Below are positions 225 through 6,692 of a stretch of DNA of 64,000 nucleotides, one piece after another. Under the pieces are notes generated by a model that saw only the letters and a list, made by a program, of their open reading frames with translations, made no database searches and was not told the origin of the DNA. The position numbers and the translations under genes were made by a program. Position 1 is the first letter of the stretch. Each line of letters begins with the position of its first letter. Source of the stretch: Opitutales bacterium (lineage in GTDB: Bacteria; Verrucomicrobiota; Verrucomicrobiia; Opitutales; JABSRG01); contig JANQKZ010000030.1 in assembly GCA_028280845.1 (NCBI GenBank), forward strand, positions 1-64,000, written 5' to 3'.

Positions 225-674
225 TTAGGAGTTAAACGAATCAGACAGTAAGGCGAGTACTTCCAGATTGTCTTCTTCGAAAAGAATTTCCAGGTCTTGT
301 AGCGTATCTTCCAGGGCGAGCAATTCGTCCTCCGTCAACTCCGCCTTCGCCATCAGCGGCGTATCTTCCAGGGGCTGCGTCTGGGTGAGGGTAGGGTTTT
401 CCAGGGTGGTGGAATCTACCGGGACCGAGCTCGGGGTTTTCAGAAAAATGCCAACGGTGAGGGCAGCGGCGGCGGCCAGGCCCAATCCTCCGATCACGGT
501 GGGGAAGGAGATCACCTTCCTGGAGGGGAGAGGGGCGGCTTCCGGCTCTGGGTCAGCATCCGGTGCATCCAAGTCGGTCTTCAGGATTTCCGTGAGGACG
601 CGGTCCTTGAAGGCCGCATCGGGTTGAATGGGCTGGCTGCTCAGCAATTGATCCAGTTTATCGTCAGGATTCAT
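225..674 (-). CDS. Putative membrane-anchored anti-sigma factor
   Basis: The 149-residue product has an acidic cytoplasmic N-terminus (MNPDDKLDQLLSSQ), one transmembrane segment at about residues 58-79 (VIGGLGLAAAAALTVGIFL) and an acidic Glu/Leu-rich extracytoplasmic tail rich in predicted helix. There is no HxxxCxxC zinc motif. It begins 16 bases after the stop of the ECF sigma gene, which is the usual place for a cognate anti-sigma factor. The assignment rests on position and topology, not on a recognised domain. The hydrophilic tail could be the sensing part. Confidence 0.6.
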   Translation of the reverse strand: MNPDDKLDQLLSSQPIQPDAAFKDRVLTEILKTDLDAPDADPEPEAAPLPSRKVISFPTVIGGLGLAAAAALTVGIFLKTPSSVPVDSTTLENPTLTQTQPLEDTPLMAKAELTEDELLALEDTLQDLEILFEEDNLEVLALLSDSFNS

Positions 675-690
675 GGTGATAAGGTCTCTA

Positions 691-1254
691 TCATTTGAGA
701 AGCTGCTCTTTCAGAGAAGCTTTTAATTTCTGGCGTGCCCGGAAGATCCAGGTCTTCACGGAGCTTTCGGTGGTGTCCAGGATATCCGCGATTTCCTGGT
801 AGCTTAATTCCTGCTGTTTAAAGAGAAGAATGGCCGAGCGTTGATTCTCGGGGAGGTCCTGGATAGCGTGTTGGAAGGCCTCCTCAATTTCCATCTGCTC
901 GAGGTCGATCCGGCCCGATACACTGCCGGTCAGTTCAGCGGGGTCGGTCACATCCACGGGTTTGCGTTGGGCGCGACGGTATTCGTTGATGAGGAGCCGG
1001 CGCGCGATCGAAAAGAGAAAGGTCGAGAACTTGGCGGTGGGCTGATAGCGGGGGGCGGCTTTATACAGTTTGACGAAAAGGATCTGGGCGAGATCCTCTG
1101 CTTCCTGGTGGGACTGCAAAGACCGGTAGAAGAAATTGATCAGCGGGGACTGCCAGCGTTCGACGAGCTGCCCCATGGCCTGGTGGTTTCCAGCAGCGAG
1201 TCGTCGCATGAGTTCGACATCCAGGTCCTGGGTTGAAATTTCGGGGTCGACCAT
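691..1254 (-). CDS. RNA polymerase ECF-type sigma-70 factor
   Basis: The frame is open back to 1563, but the sigma-like part begins at the ATG at 1254 (MVDPEIS), giving 187 residues, the usual ECF length. Sigma region 2 covers about residues 12-100 (AEDLAQILFVKLYKA; FSTFLFSIARRLLINEYRR). Region 4 covers about 125-180 (LPENQRSAILLFKQQELSYQEIADIL, ending with the recognition helix TESSVKTWIFRARQKLK). It heads a unit with a membrane anti-sigma candidate and a secreted protein, so it probably answers an envelope signal. The start is not certain because no Shine-Dalgarno is visible. Confidence 0.85.
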   Translation of the reverse strand: MVDPEISTQDLDVELMRRLAAGNHQAMGQLVERWQSPLINFFYRSLQSHQEAEDLAQILFVKLYKAAPRYQPTAKFSTFLFSIARRLLINEYRRAQRKPVDVTDPAELTGSVSGRIDLEQMEIEEAFQHAIQDLPENQRSAILLFKQQELSYQEIADILDTTESSVKTWIFRARQKLKASLKEQLLK

Positions 1255-1797
1255 AGTGTTGGGAGCAGATGTATCTGATTCCTGTTCCGGGGCAGATGTC
1301 AACCCGGTCAAGGTCCAAGAAATAGGATAGAATATGGCGTTGGTTGCGCTCACGTATAAGGTATATCCCTTCCTGTCCCCTAAAGTTGCATGCCCATCGG
1401 CTTTTTCGACAAAAGTTTTGAGACCCGGGGGGCGGAGCTGACTGGCTTGAAACGAGGAGATGGGGCCACCCGGTTTCGGCCCCATGTGAATAAATGTGAA
1501 CACTGGGAGCAATTTGAATAACTTCAACTTGCCCCGAGGGAGCGGGAAAGTTCTGATTTCCACAGAAACGACACCTAATCGTTGTCATTCTGTTACTTGT
1601 TAAGCCAGCCTGTCGTCACCCAATATATTGGGGTTCTTATGTTAATTTTTTCCATATCTAGTATCTTTTTTTTGACAAAGTGAAAACAAGAACCCATCTT
1701 CCCCATACTCTTTTTTAGAATCCCTTCCAGCGAAACCCCTCAGCCACGAACCTATTACTCGATAACATCTTCCTAAACCCTCCCCTGCCACGAACTA
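1255..1797. other. Intergenic region between divergent sigma factor and nrdB
   Basis: The sigma-factor frame continues without a stop to 1563, but the extra sequence has no sigma character, so it is probably untranslated leader. The right half carries the tandem NrdR-type sites at 1618-1664, then a TTGACA hexamer at 1672-1677. No good -10 hexamer stands at the expected distance (1695-1700 reads CATCTT). No RNA gene was recognised. Confidence 0.5.
1618..1664 (+). promoter_or_regulatory. Tandem NrdR boxes upstream of nrdB
   Basis: Two sites match the NrdR box core C-W-A-T-A-T-A-T-W-G: CAATATATTG at 1621-1630 (all ten positions) and CCATATCTAG at 1652-1661 (two mismatches). Their starts are 31 bp apart, the roughly three-turn spacing known for NrdR operators. 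They lie 134-177 bp before the nrdB start codon. NrdR is a Zn-finger/ATP-cone repressor of ribonucleotide reductase genes; its gene is not in this window. The second site is weaker and its role is inferred from the spacing. Confidence 0.7.
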
Positions 1798-2883
1798 ATG
1801 GAAAAAACCTACACAATTGGAAATCGTAAATTTGTATTGGATGAGGCAAAAGCCGAAGCCGCTTATGCCGCCAAGCAGGTAATCAATGGTCGTGAGACTA
1901 TGACCTTCAACCTGCTCCCTCTCAAGTATCAGTGGGCCTATGATCTCTACAAGACCATGAAGGCAAACCATTGGGAGCCTGAAGATATTCCGATGCAGAA
2001 AGACGTAGAGCAGTGGCGTGACCCCCAGGCTCTGTCCGATGTTGAGCGGTGGATCATCATGATGGGGATCGGCTATTTCTCAGCGGCAGAAGGAATTGTA
2101 GGCGACAATATTCTGCATGTGGTTCGAGAGTTAGTCACCGCTCCTGAGTTGAAGTTGGTTTTGGGCCGCCATGCTCACGAAGAGAATATCCACGCGGATA
2201 GCCTGCTCTACATGGTCAGTTCCCTGGGGATCAATCCCCACGAGTGCGAGGCTATGTTTGAACAGATTCCTACCATCGTGAAGAAAAACGAGTTTGTCAC
2301 GCGGACCAGTCACGATCTGCGTCGCGATATCGACCTCACGGACACGGCAACGAAGCAGATGCTGGCCAAGAATATGTTTGTCTTCGGCCAGGTGATGGAG
2401 GGCACCCAATTCTATGGGCTCTTCGGTATGGTTCTCAGTCTTTATCGCCAAAATAAATTTCCCGGCATTGGACAGATGTTCCGCTACACCCTGCGGGACG
2501 AATCCAATCACATCGAGCTGTTCCGCCATCTCTTCATGGACCTCATTGACGAGAATCCCGATGTATGGACCGAATCTTTCCGACAAGAGTTAACTGAAAC
2601 TATGAAGGAAGGCGTAGATCTGGAGAAAGAATTCATCGCCGACTGTTTGCCTGTAAACAGCGTCGGTCTGAGTAAGGACGAATTCTGCCAGTATATTGAT
2701 TACATCGCCGACCGCCGCCTGGAAGGGTGTGGCTTGAGCCCGATTCATTCTGGGGTCGCCAATCCCTTCCCCTGGTTAGCAGAGATGATGGACATCAAGA
2801 AAGAGCAGAACTTCTTCGAAGGGCGTGTAACGGAATATCAAAAAGCCTCTGCCCTGGAATCTGTTGATGACGACGATCTCTAA
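1798..2883 (+). CDS. nrdB: Ribonucleotide reductase class I small subunit, chlamydial (Ic-like) type
   Basis: Radical-generating beta subunit that works with NrdA to make deoxyribonucleotides. The 361-residue product aligns along its length with chlamydial R2 (LPLKYQWAYDLY near 40, IADRRLE near 303, NPFPW near 322). Metal ligands are visible as E98, E129, H132, E201, E235 and H238; the first ligand is Glu, as in class Ic, not Asp as in class Ia. The position four residues after H132, which carries the radical Tyr in class Ia and Phe in Chlamydia, is Leu136. Tyr347 in the C-terminal tail fits the residue of the radical-transfer path. The ATG start lacks a clear Shine-Dalgarno. A terminator follows, so nrdA is not simply co-transcribed. 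Confidence 0.95.
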   Translation: MEKTYTIGNRKFVLDEAKAEAAYAAKQVINGRETMTFNLLPLKYQWAYDLYKTMKANHWEPEDIPMQKDVEQWRDPQALSDVERWIIMMGIGYFSAAEGIVGDNILHVVRELVTAPELKLVLGRHAHEENIHADSLLYMVSSLGINPHECEAMFEQIPTIVKKNEFVTRTSHDLRRDIDLTDTATKQMLAKNMFVFGQVMEGTQFYGLFGMVLSLYRQNKFPGIGQMFRYTLRDESNHIELFRHLFMDLIDENPDVWTESFRQELTETMKEGVDLEKEFIADCLPVNSVGLSKDEFCQYIDYIADRRLEGCGLSPIHSGVANPFPWLAEMMDIKKEQNFFEGRVTEYQKASALESVDDDDL

Positions 2884-2912
2884 GATTTGCGAACGTGCTG
2901 AACGCTAGGCTA

Positions 2913-2945
2913 AAAGCGCGGGGTGTGGTGGCCCCGCGCTTTTTC
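2913..2945 (+). terminator. Rho-independent terminator after nrdB
   Basis: An 11-bp stem (AAAGCGCGGGG pairing with CCCCGCGCTTT) with an 8-base loop is followed by T residues. It begins 30 bases after the nrdB stop. Confidence 0.9.
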
Positions 2946-3066: not shown

Positions 3067-3114
3067 CTCCAATATCTTGGGTTAGGTTTCCTAATAAAAA
3101 CCTATATGTTGTGT
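3067..3114 (+). promoter_or_regulatory. Tandem NrdR boxes upstream of nrdA
   Basis: Core CAATATCTTG at 3070-3079 and core CTATATGTTG at 3102-3111 each differ from the NrdR core at one position. The full 16-mer at 3099-3114 (AACCTATATGTTGTGT) matches the NrdR consensus at 13 of 16 positions. The starts are 32 bp apart. Together with the pair before nrdB this makes a two-promoter NrdR regulon in this window. Confidence 0.75.
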
Positions 3115-3434: not shown

Positions 3435-6400
3435 ATGATCCGAAAAGTAACCGTTGAAGAGGACCTTGCCCTCAAACATTTTGCCTCCACGCCAGCCGAT
3501 CAGAAACCTCGTTTTAATTGGCAGGAAGTCTTCGGGGAGGACGCAGTCTCTCCGGAAATCCAAATCAGTTTAAACGGAACCGATCGTTCCCTCGACCTTG
3601 CAGAAATCGCCAGTACTATCGGCAACGCATTAACCGACCTGCTCCTGGCCCGTCATGAGGAAGAAATTTACACGGAAGAAAACCGTAAGTTTGTGGCGGC
3701 GGTGGCCAAGGAAGTCGGGGACCGTCTGGTCAGGGAAATTAACGAAGGCAAGGGGCTTCGTCTGTCGGAAAACGATCTCTATCTTTTAATTGAAAAAGCG
3801 CTCATTGAAAACGATGCCTACGATGTGGCCAAGAGCCTCGTCTTTAACCGGGCTATCCTGCAGGGGGATAAACATGCCGAAGAACTTACCGACATGCTTG
3901 AAACCCAGGTGACTCCCGTCCGTTTGATTCGACGTAATCGGCAAGTGGTGCCCTGGAACGAAGGCAAGATCGAGATTGCCGTCCGCAAAGCGTTCCTTTC
4001 CCTGGAACTGGATAGTGAGCCGGCTGTGGATGTGGCTCGAGCCGTGACGCTTCGGGTGAGTGATAAAGGCCAGGCCTTCATCAACATCGAGGATGTTCAA
4101 GACATTGTTCAGGAGGAGTTGATGCGTCAGGGGCATTTCAAAGTGGCCGAGGCTTATATTCTCTACCGGGCTCATCAGTCGCGTCGGCGGGATGAAGACG
4201 GCATCCAGGAGGAGATGGAATCTCGCCAGGATTCCATGATTGTGATCCGTCGACCCGACGGAGAATCCTTCTTCTGGGATGGGGTCGATCTGAAACGACG
4301 GATCGAATATGCCATGATCGGGCTGGAACTTCGCTTTACGGCCGATGAGATTGAGGCCGAGCTGCGTCGGTCTCTCTATCCGGAAATGACGGTGGCTGAC
4401 TTGCAAAAGACAATCCTGCTCAATGCGAAAACCCTGATTGAAAAAGACGCGGACTTTGCCAAATTTGCCGGTCGCATCCTGCTCACTTATATCTATGAAG
4501 AAGTCCTCGACTGGGACATCGCCAGAGATGGCATTCATGGGCTTCGTGATGCGCATAAAAAGGCCTTCAAGGAAAACCTGAAACGGGGACGGGATATCGA
4601 GCGAATCAATCCGCGCCTCCTGGATTACAAGCTGGATCAGTTGGCCGATGCGATCGATCCGTCCGCCGATATGGACTTCGACTACCTCGGCATTCAAACC
4701 CTGTATGACCGCTATCTGATTATCGACAAGCAGCGCCAGCCGCACCGCCGCCTGGAAGTTCCCCAATTATTCTGGATGCGCGTGTCCATGGGGCTCTTCC
4801 TCGATTACGAGGAAAACCGTGAAGATTTCGTTATCCAGCTCTACAACCTGTATAAGAGCCGTCGGTTCTGCTCCTCCACCCCGACCCTCTTCAATAGCGG
4901 CACGCTGCACAGCCAGCTCTCCAGCTGTTATCTCTACAAAGTGGACGACAACATCGAATCTATTATGGTGCGGGGTATCGCGGAAAACGCCTTTCTATCC
5001 AAGTGGGCCGGAGGCTTAGGCGGCTCCTGGACGAGCGTGCGTGGTACCGGCAGCTACATCAAGGGTACCAACGGGGAGAGTCAGGGAGTCATTCCTTTCC
5101 TCAAGTTGCACAATGACCAACTCGTAGCCGTAAACCAGGGCGGCAAGCGCCGTGGTTCCGGATGCGCTTATCTGGAATCCTGGCACAATGACATCCTCGA
5201 TTTCCTTGAGCTTCGTAAGAACGTAGGGGACGACCGCCGCCGTACCCACGATATGAATACAGCAAACTGGATTCCCGACCTGTTCATGAAGCGAATGGAA
5301 GCCCGGGAAGAGTGGACGCTGTTCCGTTCCAGCGAAGTGCCGGAGTTGCACGAGCTCTATGGAAAAGCCTTTGAGGACAAGTATACCGAATATGAAGCCA
5401 AGGCAGAGCGGGGGGAAATCATCGGGAAGAAGATCCCGGCCCTCGACCTGTGGAAAGGTATGTTGAAGATGCTGTTCGAAACCGGGCACCCTTGGATCAC
5501 TTTTAAAGATCCCTGTAACGTCCGGAGCCCGCAGGACCACGCCGGAGTGATCCACAGTTCGAATCTCTGCACGGAAATTACGCTGAATACCGGCGCAGAT
5601 GAAACCGCGGTCTGCAACCTGGGGTCGGTCATCCTCGATAACCATCTGGATAAGGATGGGAATATCGACCATGAAAAGCTGCGCAACACGATTCAAATCG
5701 CAGTTCGTGCCCTCGACAATGTCATCGATATCAATTTTTATCCGACTGAAGCCGCGCAGAATTCGAACCGCCGCCACCGCCCCATTGGCATGGGGGTGAT
5801 GGGTCTCCAAAATGCCCTCTACCGCAAGGGGCTGCGATTCGATTCGGAAGAAGCCGTGGAATTCAATGACGAATTCATGGAAGCCATCTGCTACTATGCC
5901 TATGAAGCCTCCAGTGACCTGGCGGATGAGAAAGGTGCCTATAGCAGCTTTAAGGGATCCAAGTGGGACCGTGGCCTCATGCCGTCTGACACGCTGGAGC
6001 TGCTGGAGCAGGAGCGCGGTGAGAAAATCGAGGTGTCCCGGGTTTCCAGGATGGATTGGGATGCCCTGCGGACTAAAATCCAAAAGCAGGGCATGCGGAA
6101 TTCCAATGTGATTGCGATCGCCCCGACCGCGACGATTTCCAACATCATGGGCACTACTCCTTGTATTGAGCCGACTTATAAAAATCTCTTTGTGAAGAGT
6201 AATCTGTCCGGTGACTTCATTGTCCTGAATGTGCACTTGGTGAAGGATCTCAAAAGCCGTGGCCTGTGGAATGATGAGATGGTTGACCAGTTGAAGTATT
6301 TTGATGGTGAACTGACCGACATCGCGGAAATCCCTGAAGACTTGAAAGAGAAATACAAAACGGCCTTTGGTATCTCCCCTGAGTGGATTATTGATTGTGC

Positions 6401-6692
6401 CGCCCGACGTCAGAAATGGATAGATCAGGCCCAAAGTGTGAATCTCTGGTTGGGCGAACCCAGCCTGAAGACCTTGTCCCACATGTATCGCCGCGCCTGG
6501 CGAACCGGCTTGAAGACGACCTATTACCTGCGCACGCTCCAAGCTTCCAATATTGAGAAGGCGACTGTGAAGGTGAAAAAGGAAATGATCGGCACCATGG
6601 CAGGTGAGCAGCGTCAATACACCGAAGCGGAAGTGAAGGCATGTTCGATCGAAGCCATGCGCAACGGCGAAGAATGTGAGGCGTGCCAATGA
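3435..6692 (+). CDS. nrdA: Ribonucleotide reductase class I large subunit with repeated ATP-cones
   Basis: Catalytic alpha subunit reducing ribonucleoside diphosphates. At 1085 residues it is far longer than the E. coli protein because of its N-terminus: ATP-cone-like domains lie at about 160-250 (VTPVRLIRRNRQVVPWNEGK) and 268-360, and residues about 45-145 look like a third, degenerate cone. Active-site residues are visible: C498 (QLSSCYL) and C727 (AVCNLGS) as the redox pair, and N710, C712 and E714 (NLCTE). The C-terminal shuttle pair is C1081 and C1084 (ECEACQ). A YY pair occurs near the end (TTYYLRTLQ). The architecture and length resemble chlamydial NrdA, matching the NrdB type. Long antisense frames inside this gene are shadows. 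Confidence 0.96.
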   Translation: MIRKVTVEEDLALKHFASTPADQKPRFNWQEVFGEDAVSPEIQISLNGTDRSLDLAEIASTIGNALTDLLLARHEEEIYTEENRKFVAAVAKEVGDRLVREINEGKGLRLSENDLYLLIEKALIENDAYDVAKSLVFNRAILQGDKHAEELTDMLETQVTPVRLIRRNRQVVPWNEGKIEIAVRKAFLSLELDSEPAVDVARAVTLRVSDKGQAFINIEDVQDIVQEELMRQGHFKVAEAYILYRAHQSRRRDEDGIQEEMESRQDSMIVIRRPDGESFFWDGVDLKRRIEYAMIGLELRFTADEIEAELRRSLYPEMTVADLQKTILLNAKTLIEKDADFAKFAGRILLTYIYEEVLDWDIARDGIHGLRDAHKKAFKENLKRGRDIERINPRLLDYKLDQLADAIDPSADMDFDYLGIQTLYDRYLIIDKQRQPHRRLEVPQLFWMRVSMGLFLDYEENREDFVIQLYNLYKSRRFCSSTPTLFNSGTLHSQLSSCYLYKVDDNIESIMVRGIAENAFLSKWAGGLGGSWTSVRGTGSYIKGTNGESQGVIPFLKLHNDQLVAVNQGGKRRGSGCAYLESWHNDILDFLELRKNVGDDRRRTHDMNTANWIPDLFMKRMEAREEWTLFRSSEVPELHELYGKAFEDKYTEYEAKAERGEIIGKKIPALDLWKGMLKMLFETGHPWITFKDPCNVRSPQDHAGVIHSSNLCTEITLNTGADETAVCNLGSVILDNHLDKDGNIDHEKLRNTIQIAVRALDNVIDINFYPTEAAQNSNRRHRPIGMGVMGLQNALYRKGLRFDSEEAVEFNDEFMEAICYYAYEASSDLADEKGAYSSFKGSKWDRGLMPSDTLELLEQERGEKIEVSRVSRMDWDALRTKIQKQGMRNSNVIAIAPTATISNIMGTTPCIEPTYKNLFVKSNLSGDFIVLNVHLVKDLKSRGLWNDEMVDQLKYFDGELTDIAEIPEDLKEKYKTAFGISPEWIIDCAARRQKWIDQAQSVNLWLGEPSLKTLSHMYRRAWRTGLKTTYYLRTLQASNIEKATVKVKKEMIGTMAGEQRQYTEAEVKACSIEAMRNGEECEACQ

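Follow-up and report, generated by a model that had tools for sequence, protein, structure and literature searches.

Leucine at the radical-tyrosine position of a verrucomicrobial ribonucleotide reductase subunit, very probably of class Ic

The nrdB-nrdA locus and its metal site

Which oxidant serves a class I ribonucleotide reductase (RNR) when leucine stands at the position of the radical tyrosine? The question is raised by an nrdB gene in a stretch of 64,000 nucleotides from an Opitutales bacterium, the whole of which is called the window here. The window is part of contig 39 in an assembly of 62 contigs and 4.79 Mb, and the DNA outside the locus resembles ordinary chromosome. The features of the locus are as follows.

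1618 to 1664, unstranded: tandem NrdR-box-like sites before nrdB (10-base cores 1621-1630 and 1652-1661, 31 bp apart)
1798 to 2883, plus strand: nrdB, radical-generating subunit of class I RNR, leucine type (ATG start, 361 amino acids, intact)
2912 to 2944, plus strand: probable intrinsic terminator after nrdB (AAAAGCGCGGGG-TGTGGTGG-CCCCGCGCTTTTT), read from the sequence
3067 to 3114, unstranded: tandem NrdR-box-like sites before nrdA (cores 3070-3079 and 3102-3111, 32 bp apart)
3435 to 6692, plus strand: nrdA, catalytic subunit (1085 amino acids, complete; 1259.9 bits to NF005544)

In a profile search, the NrdB of the window scored 341.9 bits against the NCBIfam equivalog NF005550 (cut-off 309) and 235.9 bits against Pfam PF00268. 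All six dimetal ligands are present (E98, E129, H132, E201, E235, and H238), the radical-tyrosine position is occupied by L136 (codon CTG), and the residues around the site read EENIH-ADS-L-L-Y. The alignment with Chlamydia trachomatis R2 has no gaps around the metal site, and it equates these ligands with E89, E120, H123, E193, E227, and H230, respectively, L136 with F127, and Y138 with Y129. The electron-transfer residues W51, Y222, D226, and Y338 of the chlamydial protein are also kept, as W59, Y230, D234, and Y347. With six ligands, the R2 ferritin-like fold, and nrdA as the next gene, the protein is a class I RNR beta subunit.

An AlphaFold model was obtained from 47 sequences including viral NrdBs (pLDDT 87.7); an input of 35 close relatives alone reached a pLDDT of 64 and was set aside. 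In the model, a single unbroken helix spans residues 116 to 143. Judged from helix geometry, H132 and L136 would share one face of this helix, one turn apart, and Y138 would lie on another face. The top structural matches are the Mn/Fe NrdB structures of C. trachomatis (4d8f, 4d8g, and 4m1i; Z 43, RMSD 2.3 to 3.0 over about 325 residues, 37% identity), followed by Saccharopolyspora erythraea R2 (6y2n, Z 42.3), the Escherichia coli class Ia protein (Z 37.8), and class Id proteins (Z of about 34); Foldseek concurs with this ranking. The earlier note had described an intact ligand set, a leucine four residues after H132 at the radical site, a first ligand Glu as in chlamydial class Ic, and a nearby Tyr138 that might act as a decoy. 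All four readings hold, the last through both the gap-free alignment and the uninterrupted predicted helix; the alignment with the Chlamydia protein, which the note had proposed as a check, places Leu136 at the radical site and Tyr138 elsewhere.

The partner NrdA is collinear from residue 81 to 1085 with NF009029, a 1046-position model of chlamydial-length NrdA, with a score below the cut-off of that model. Its N-terminal extension contains one ATP cone scored by Pfam (residues 165 to 248) and further sequence like that of chlamydial NrdA. The motif residues expected of a working NrdA are in place, namely cysteines 498, 712, 727, 1081, and 1084 and the pair Tyr1030-Tyr1031, whose roles we take to be those generally assigned in NrdA proteins. 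The probable terminator between nrdB and nrdA, which was missing from the output of a terminator pattern scan, suggests that the two form separate units. Of 79 relatives, 33 have similar pairs of NrdR-like boxes upstream of nrdB, vs 1 of 79 shuffled controls, and the genome carries an NrdR gene. Divergent from nrdB lies a gene for an ECF sigma factor (691 to 1563, minus strand); beside it, a small protein without a family match (225 to 674, minus strand) has a position like that of an anti-sigma partner.

The genome encodes one NrdB, a single class I/II large subunit (the NrdA of the window), and NrdD. A search of the genome for a class II large subunit found none, nor was NrdI found there, though three control genomes gave matches. 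From this gene content, the sole class I RNR, accompanied by NrdD and by no detected class II large subunit, is probably functional and the aerobic RNR of the organism.

Conservation, distribution, and phylogeny of the leucine type

L136, all six ligands, and Y138 are invariant in 110 of 110 close relatives (77 to 100% identity), and leucine occupies the site in all 125 distinct Leu-type NrdBs. Among these proteins, Leu136 is encoded by CTC (46), CTG (43), TTG (15), CTT (13), TTA (7), and CTA (3). All six leucine codons are thus used without a change to Phe or Tyr, which indicates purifying selection on residue 136; invariance through six codons also rules out chance or a sequencing error at this codon.

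The nature of the first ligand follows that of the site residue. Among 187 distinct NrdBs, 125 combine Glu98 with Leu136, 15 combine Glu with Phe, and 47 combine Asp with Tyr; 80 viral NrdBs comprise 61 with Asp and Tyr, 12 with Glu and Val, and 7 with Glu and Ile. The association of Glu with a residue other than Tyr (L, F, V, or I), and of Asp with Tyr, has no exception in the 267 NrdBs. Mapped on the tree, however, it reflects only three independent transitions (sign test, p = 0.25), so that the sequence count overstates the link. The Leu clade also has second-shell residues of its own (D134, T203-Q204, M227, and T231). Because it is about 42% identical to the Phe-type Ic proteins, branches apart from them, and has its own second shell, its metal preference could differ.

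The nearest relatives of the window NrdB are found in Opitutia and other Verrucomicrobiota, and the 125 distinct Leu-type proteins belong mainly to Verrucomicrobiota, with some from Armatimonadota. Across the window's phylum, 289 genomes gave about 60 matches (71 to 100% identity), and every sequence that was read has leucine at the site; this phylum also contains Phe-type and Tyr-type NrdBs. A Fimbriimonadaceae MAG, assigned to Armatimonadota by its title (G289), carries the Leu type, and 201 genomes of its phylum gave 15 further full-length matches (75 to 81%) and one fragment (83%). G290 is a MAG titled Rubrivivax; when 299 genomes of its phylum were searched, the only close match was a 3,058-base contig in G290 itself (L055), which is probably a misbinned verrucomicrobial contig. 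Viral contigs searched with the window protein alone gave no match, and a distant search of them recovered Val/Ile and Tyr types and no Leu type. Matches in phages and plasmids are all below 60% identity, and those read are of the Tyr or Phe types.

Several variants were noted during this survey. Two genomes of one genus in the window's order carry tandem nrdB1-nrdB2 genes (L111:2218-4532 in G116 and L112:3396-5716 in G208), with nrdA next in L111. The second copies are 51 to 53% identical to the window NrdB and keep the six ligands, the site leucine, and the C-terminal Tyr; they have Y138H and Y230N changes and lack the NFFEGR motif. They are 83% identical to each other, with dN of 0.11 and dS of 0.97, which shows purifying selection, and the nrdB2 product may possibly serve a metal-only RNR as a beta' helper. 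A Leu-type NrdB that branches deeply and alone (L113 in G047, 53% identity) has His at position 138 and keeps Tyr at 230. In addition, a Phe-type NrdB gene (L118, G258:C10:102536-103531) contains one in-frame TGA.

For phylogenetic analysis, the two diagnostic columns were taken out of the alignment. A branch with a support of 99/93 (93/69 and 93/82 in other samplings) separates the Leu proteins from all others, and the viral Val/Ile NrdBs form a branch of their own (100/99), apart from the Leu clade. The Leu clade also branches apart from the Chlamydia-type Phe proteins, in a tree limited by long branches and rooting. A single clade of all NrdBs with Glu as the first ligand was rejected at p-AU values of 0.009 and 0.027 on trees that contain long branches, and a single origin of these proteins is accordingly disfavored, within the limits that long branches and rooting set to the test. 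Two histories would account for this, repeated loss of the tyrosine or its recovery in the proteobacterial group; that R2c is polyphyletic had been noted earlier (PMC3824934, citing Lundin 2010). It is possible, though we hold it only tentatively and think it rather less probable than its converse, that the Leu lineage lost Tyr and switched from Asp to Glu independently of the Phe proteins and may have its own route of metal selection or assembly.

The probable oxidant and its alternatives

We assign the window NrdB, with a probability of about 0.85, to class Ic as a leucine-type RNR beta subunit, Mn(IV)/Fe(III) being its most likely metal oxidant. Subclass Ic is recognized by Phe, Leu, or Val in place of the radical tyrosine (Harrison 2019, PMC6370689), and L136 is such a replacement; the Glu first metal ligand (E98) and the C-terminal Tyr with the Trp and Asp of the electron path (Y347, W59, and D234) are further class Ic features of this protein. 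The protein is best read as having a metal-based oxidant, because the Glu first ligand accompanies the loss of Tyr without exception in the 267 sequences, a pattern that also strengthens the earlier note's proposal of a probable metal-based oxidant instead of a tyrosyl radical. By analogy with the Chlamydia enzyme, the window enzyme very probably uses its metals directly.

Other classes fit the protein poorly. In class Id (NrdBi), Glu is the first ligand and the hole is stored on metal (PMC6754362); its markers are a Trp 7 residues after Glu and, in a subgroup, a Lys 4 residues after it (E239, K243, and W246 in F. ignava; PMC6754362). In the window NrdB, the tyrosine is replaced by L136 and this signature is absent, the residue at E98+4 being Gly (G102) in 125 of 125 Leu-type proteins and that at E98+7 (position 105) Ile or Val. 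Class Ib (NrdF) is rejected by Leu at the site, by NrdI not being found in the genome, and by a TIGR04171 score of 69.7 bits vs a cut-off of 355. Class Ie, with several carboxylate ligands lost and DOPA on the tyrosine, disagrees with the six ligands kept and with a site that has no Tyr. R2lox proteins have neither a C-terminal radical-path Tyr nor an NrdA, whereas Y347 is present and NrdA adjacent here; the best R2lox model gives 55.1 bits vs a cut-off of 194.

Within a tyrosine-less site, the metals themselves could differ from those of Chlamydia. A dimanganese oxidant of the class Id kind, Mn(III)/Mn(IV), would agree with the Glu first ligand and the hole on metal that class Id has (PMC6754362), but it is unlikely: the Lys/Trp markers are replaced by Gly at +4 (125 of 125) and Ile or Val at +7, class Id keeps a tyrosine where the window NrdB has Leu, and the Id structures match the model less well (Z of about 34 vs 43). 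Mn/Fe is therefore favored over Mn/Mn, since the class Id signature is absent and the nearest solved structures are those of the Chlamydia Mn/Fe NrdB. An iron-only or other metal-based oxidant at the same site is improbable to a like degree. The ligand set alone does not dictate the metal, the second-shell residues of the Leu clade are its own, and class Ic scaffolds are known to become mis-metallated (PMC8463856); against this, the closest characterized relative is the Mn/Fe-dependent C. trachomatis R2, and no positive sign points to an iron-only oxidant.

Readings that depart from a metal-based oxidant altogether fare worse. That a tyrosyl radical forms on another tyrosine such as Tyr138 might seem to draw on the invariance of Y138 in the main Leu group (110 of 110), yet in Chlamydia the equivalent Y129 is present alongside a metal-based oxidant, the residue at +6 is predicted to lie on another face of the uninterrupted helix (116 to 143) than H132 and L136, and position 138 is His in the second copies of L111 and L112, in L113, and in some viral Val/Ile types; we regard such a radical as very improbable. 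Hardly credible at all is a degenerate, non-catalytic scaffold subunit, for which the tandem second NrdB with an altered second shell in two related genomes offers a precedent: the window NrdB is the sole NrdB of its genome, its ligands and transfer residues are all invariant, and the search of this genome gave no class II large subunit.

For the favored Mn/Fe oxidant, a reaction scheme can be proposed by homology to C. trachomatis R2, in which Mn occupies site 1 of a Mn(IV)/Fe(III) cofactor (PMC8463856). A Mn(II)/Fe(II) pair held by the six ligands (E98, E129, H132, E201, E235, and H238) would react with O2, and the oxidized state left would most likely be Mn(IV)/Fe(III), the Mn sitting in site 1 beside the usual place of the tyrosine. 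Since there is no tyrosine at 136 to accept the oxidizing equivalent, the one-electron hole would stay on the metals. Binding of NrdA would then draw the hole via W59/D234 and Y347 to Y1031/Y1030 of NrdA and on to Cys712. The extra electron during activation may be supplied by Y230, like Y222 of the Chlamydia R2.

Relation to known NrdB groups and significance

The leucine at the radical site is a correct observation of an already known variant. It is not new, since RNRdb in 2009 denoted Mn/Fe NrdBs as NrdB-Phe or NrdB-Leu (PMC2795772); Leu, Ile, and Val in R2c have been credited to Hogbom 2010 (PMC3824934), and a preprint of 2026 names Phe or Leu as the Ic residue (PMC12918982). The window protein comes from an Opitutia-like verrucomicrobial genome and belongs to NrdB-Leu (subclass Ic, NrdBzc), a group that takes its name from this very replacement; no difference from that group was seen. 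No metal analysis, EPR, or activity data on any Leu-type NrdB were found in the open-licence literature.

Among characterized proteins, the class Ic R2 of C. trachomatis (1syy, 4d8f, 4d8g, and 4m1i) shares with the window NrdB the six ligands including the first Glu, the missing radical tyrosine, the equivalents of Y129, Y222, W51, Y338, and D226, the fold (Z 43), and an NrdA with a long N-terminal extension. It differs in having Phe where the window NrdB has Leu, in another second shell, in an identity of about 37 to 42%, and in its separate branch. S. erythraea R2 (6y2n) likewise has the Glu first ligand and the same fold (Z 42.3, RMSD 1.5), but it has Phe at the radical site and groups with the proteobacterial NrdBz in the tree. 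The marine viral "Ic-like" NrdBs with Ile or Val (PMC12918982), to which the viral loci L199 to L215, L217, and L218 probably belong, have no tyrosine and have Glu as the first ligand in 19 of 19, whereas their clade (100/99) is separate from the Leu clade. The class Id proteins of L. blandensis, F. ignava, and F. johnsoniae have the Glu first ligand and a metal-based oxidant in common with the reading favored here, but they keep the Tyr and have the Lys/Trp signature and a Mn2 cofactor.

The remaining interest thus lies in the Leu lineage as a branch of its own, apart from the Chlamydia-type Phe proteins. With it, class Ic (metal-only) ribonucleotide reduction would reach a large lineage of free-living bacteria, the Verrucomicrobiota with some Armatimonadota, and in at least the genome of the window the RNR with the Leu-type NrdB is the sole class I RNR. 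If the loss of Tyr in the Leu lineage was independent, class I RNRs acquired metal-only radical initiation on more than one occasion. Because Leu-type proteins carry generic NrdB names, they can be mistaken for di-iron/tyrosyl enzymes, a label that would mislead on iron and manganese needs or on hydroxyurea sensitivity. The set includes the harmless and cultivable sources Pelagicoccus mobilis and Geminisphaera colitermitum, which would allow one to ask whether the site residue (Phe, Leu, Val, or Ile) matters once the hole is on the metals.
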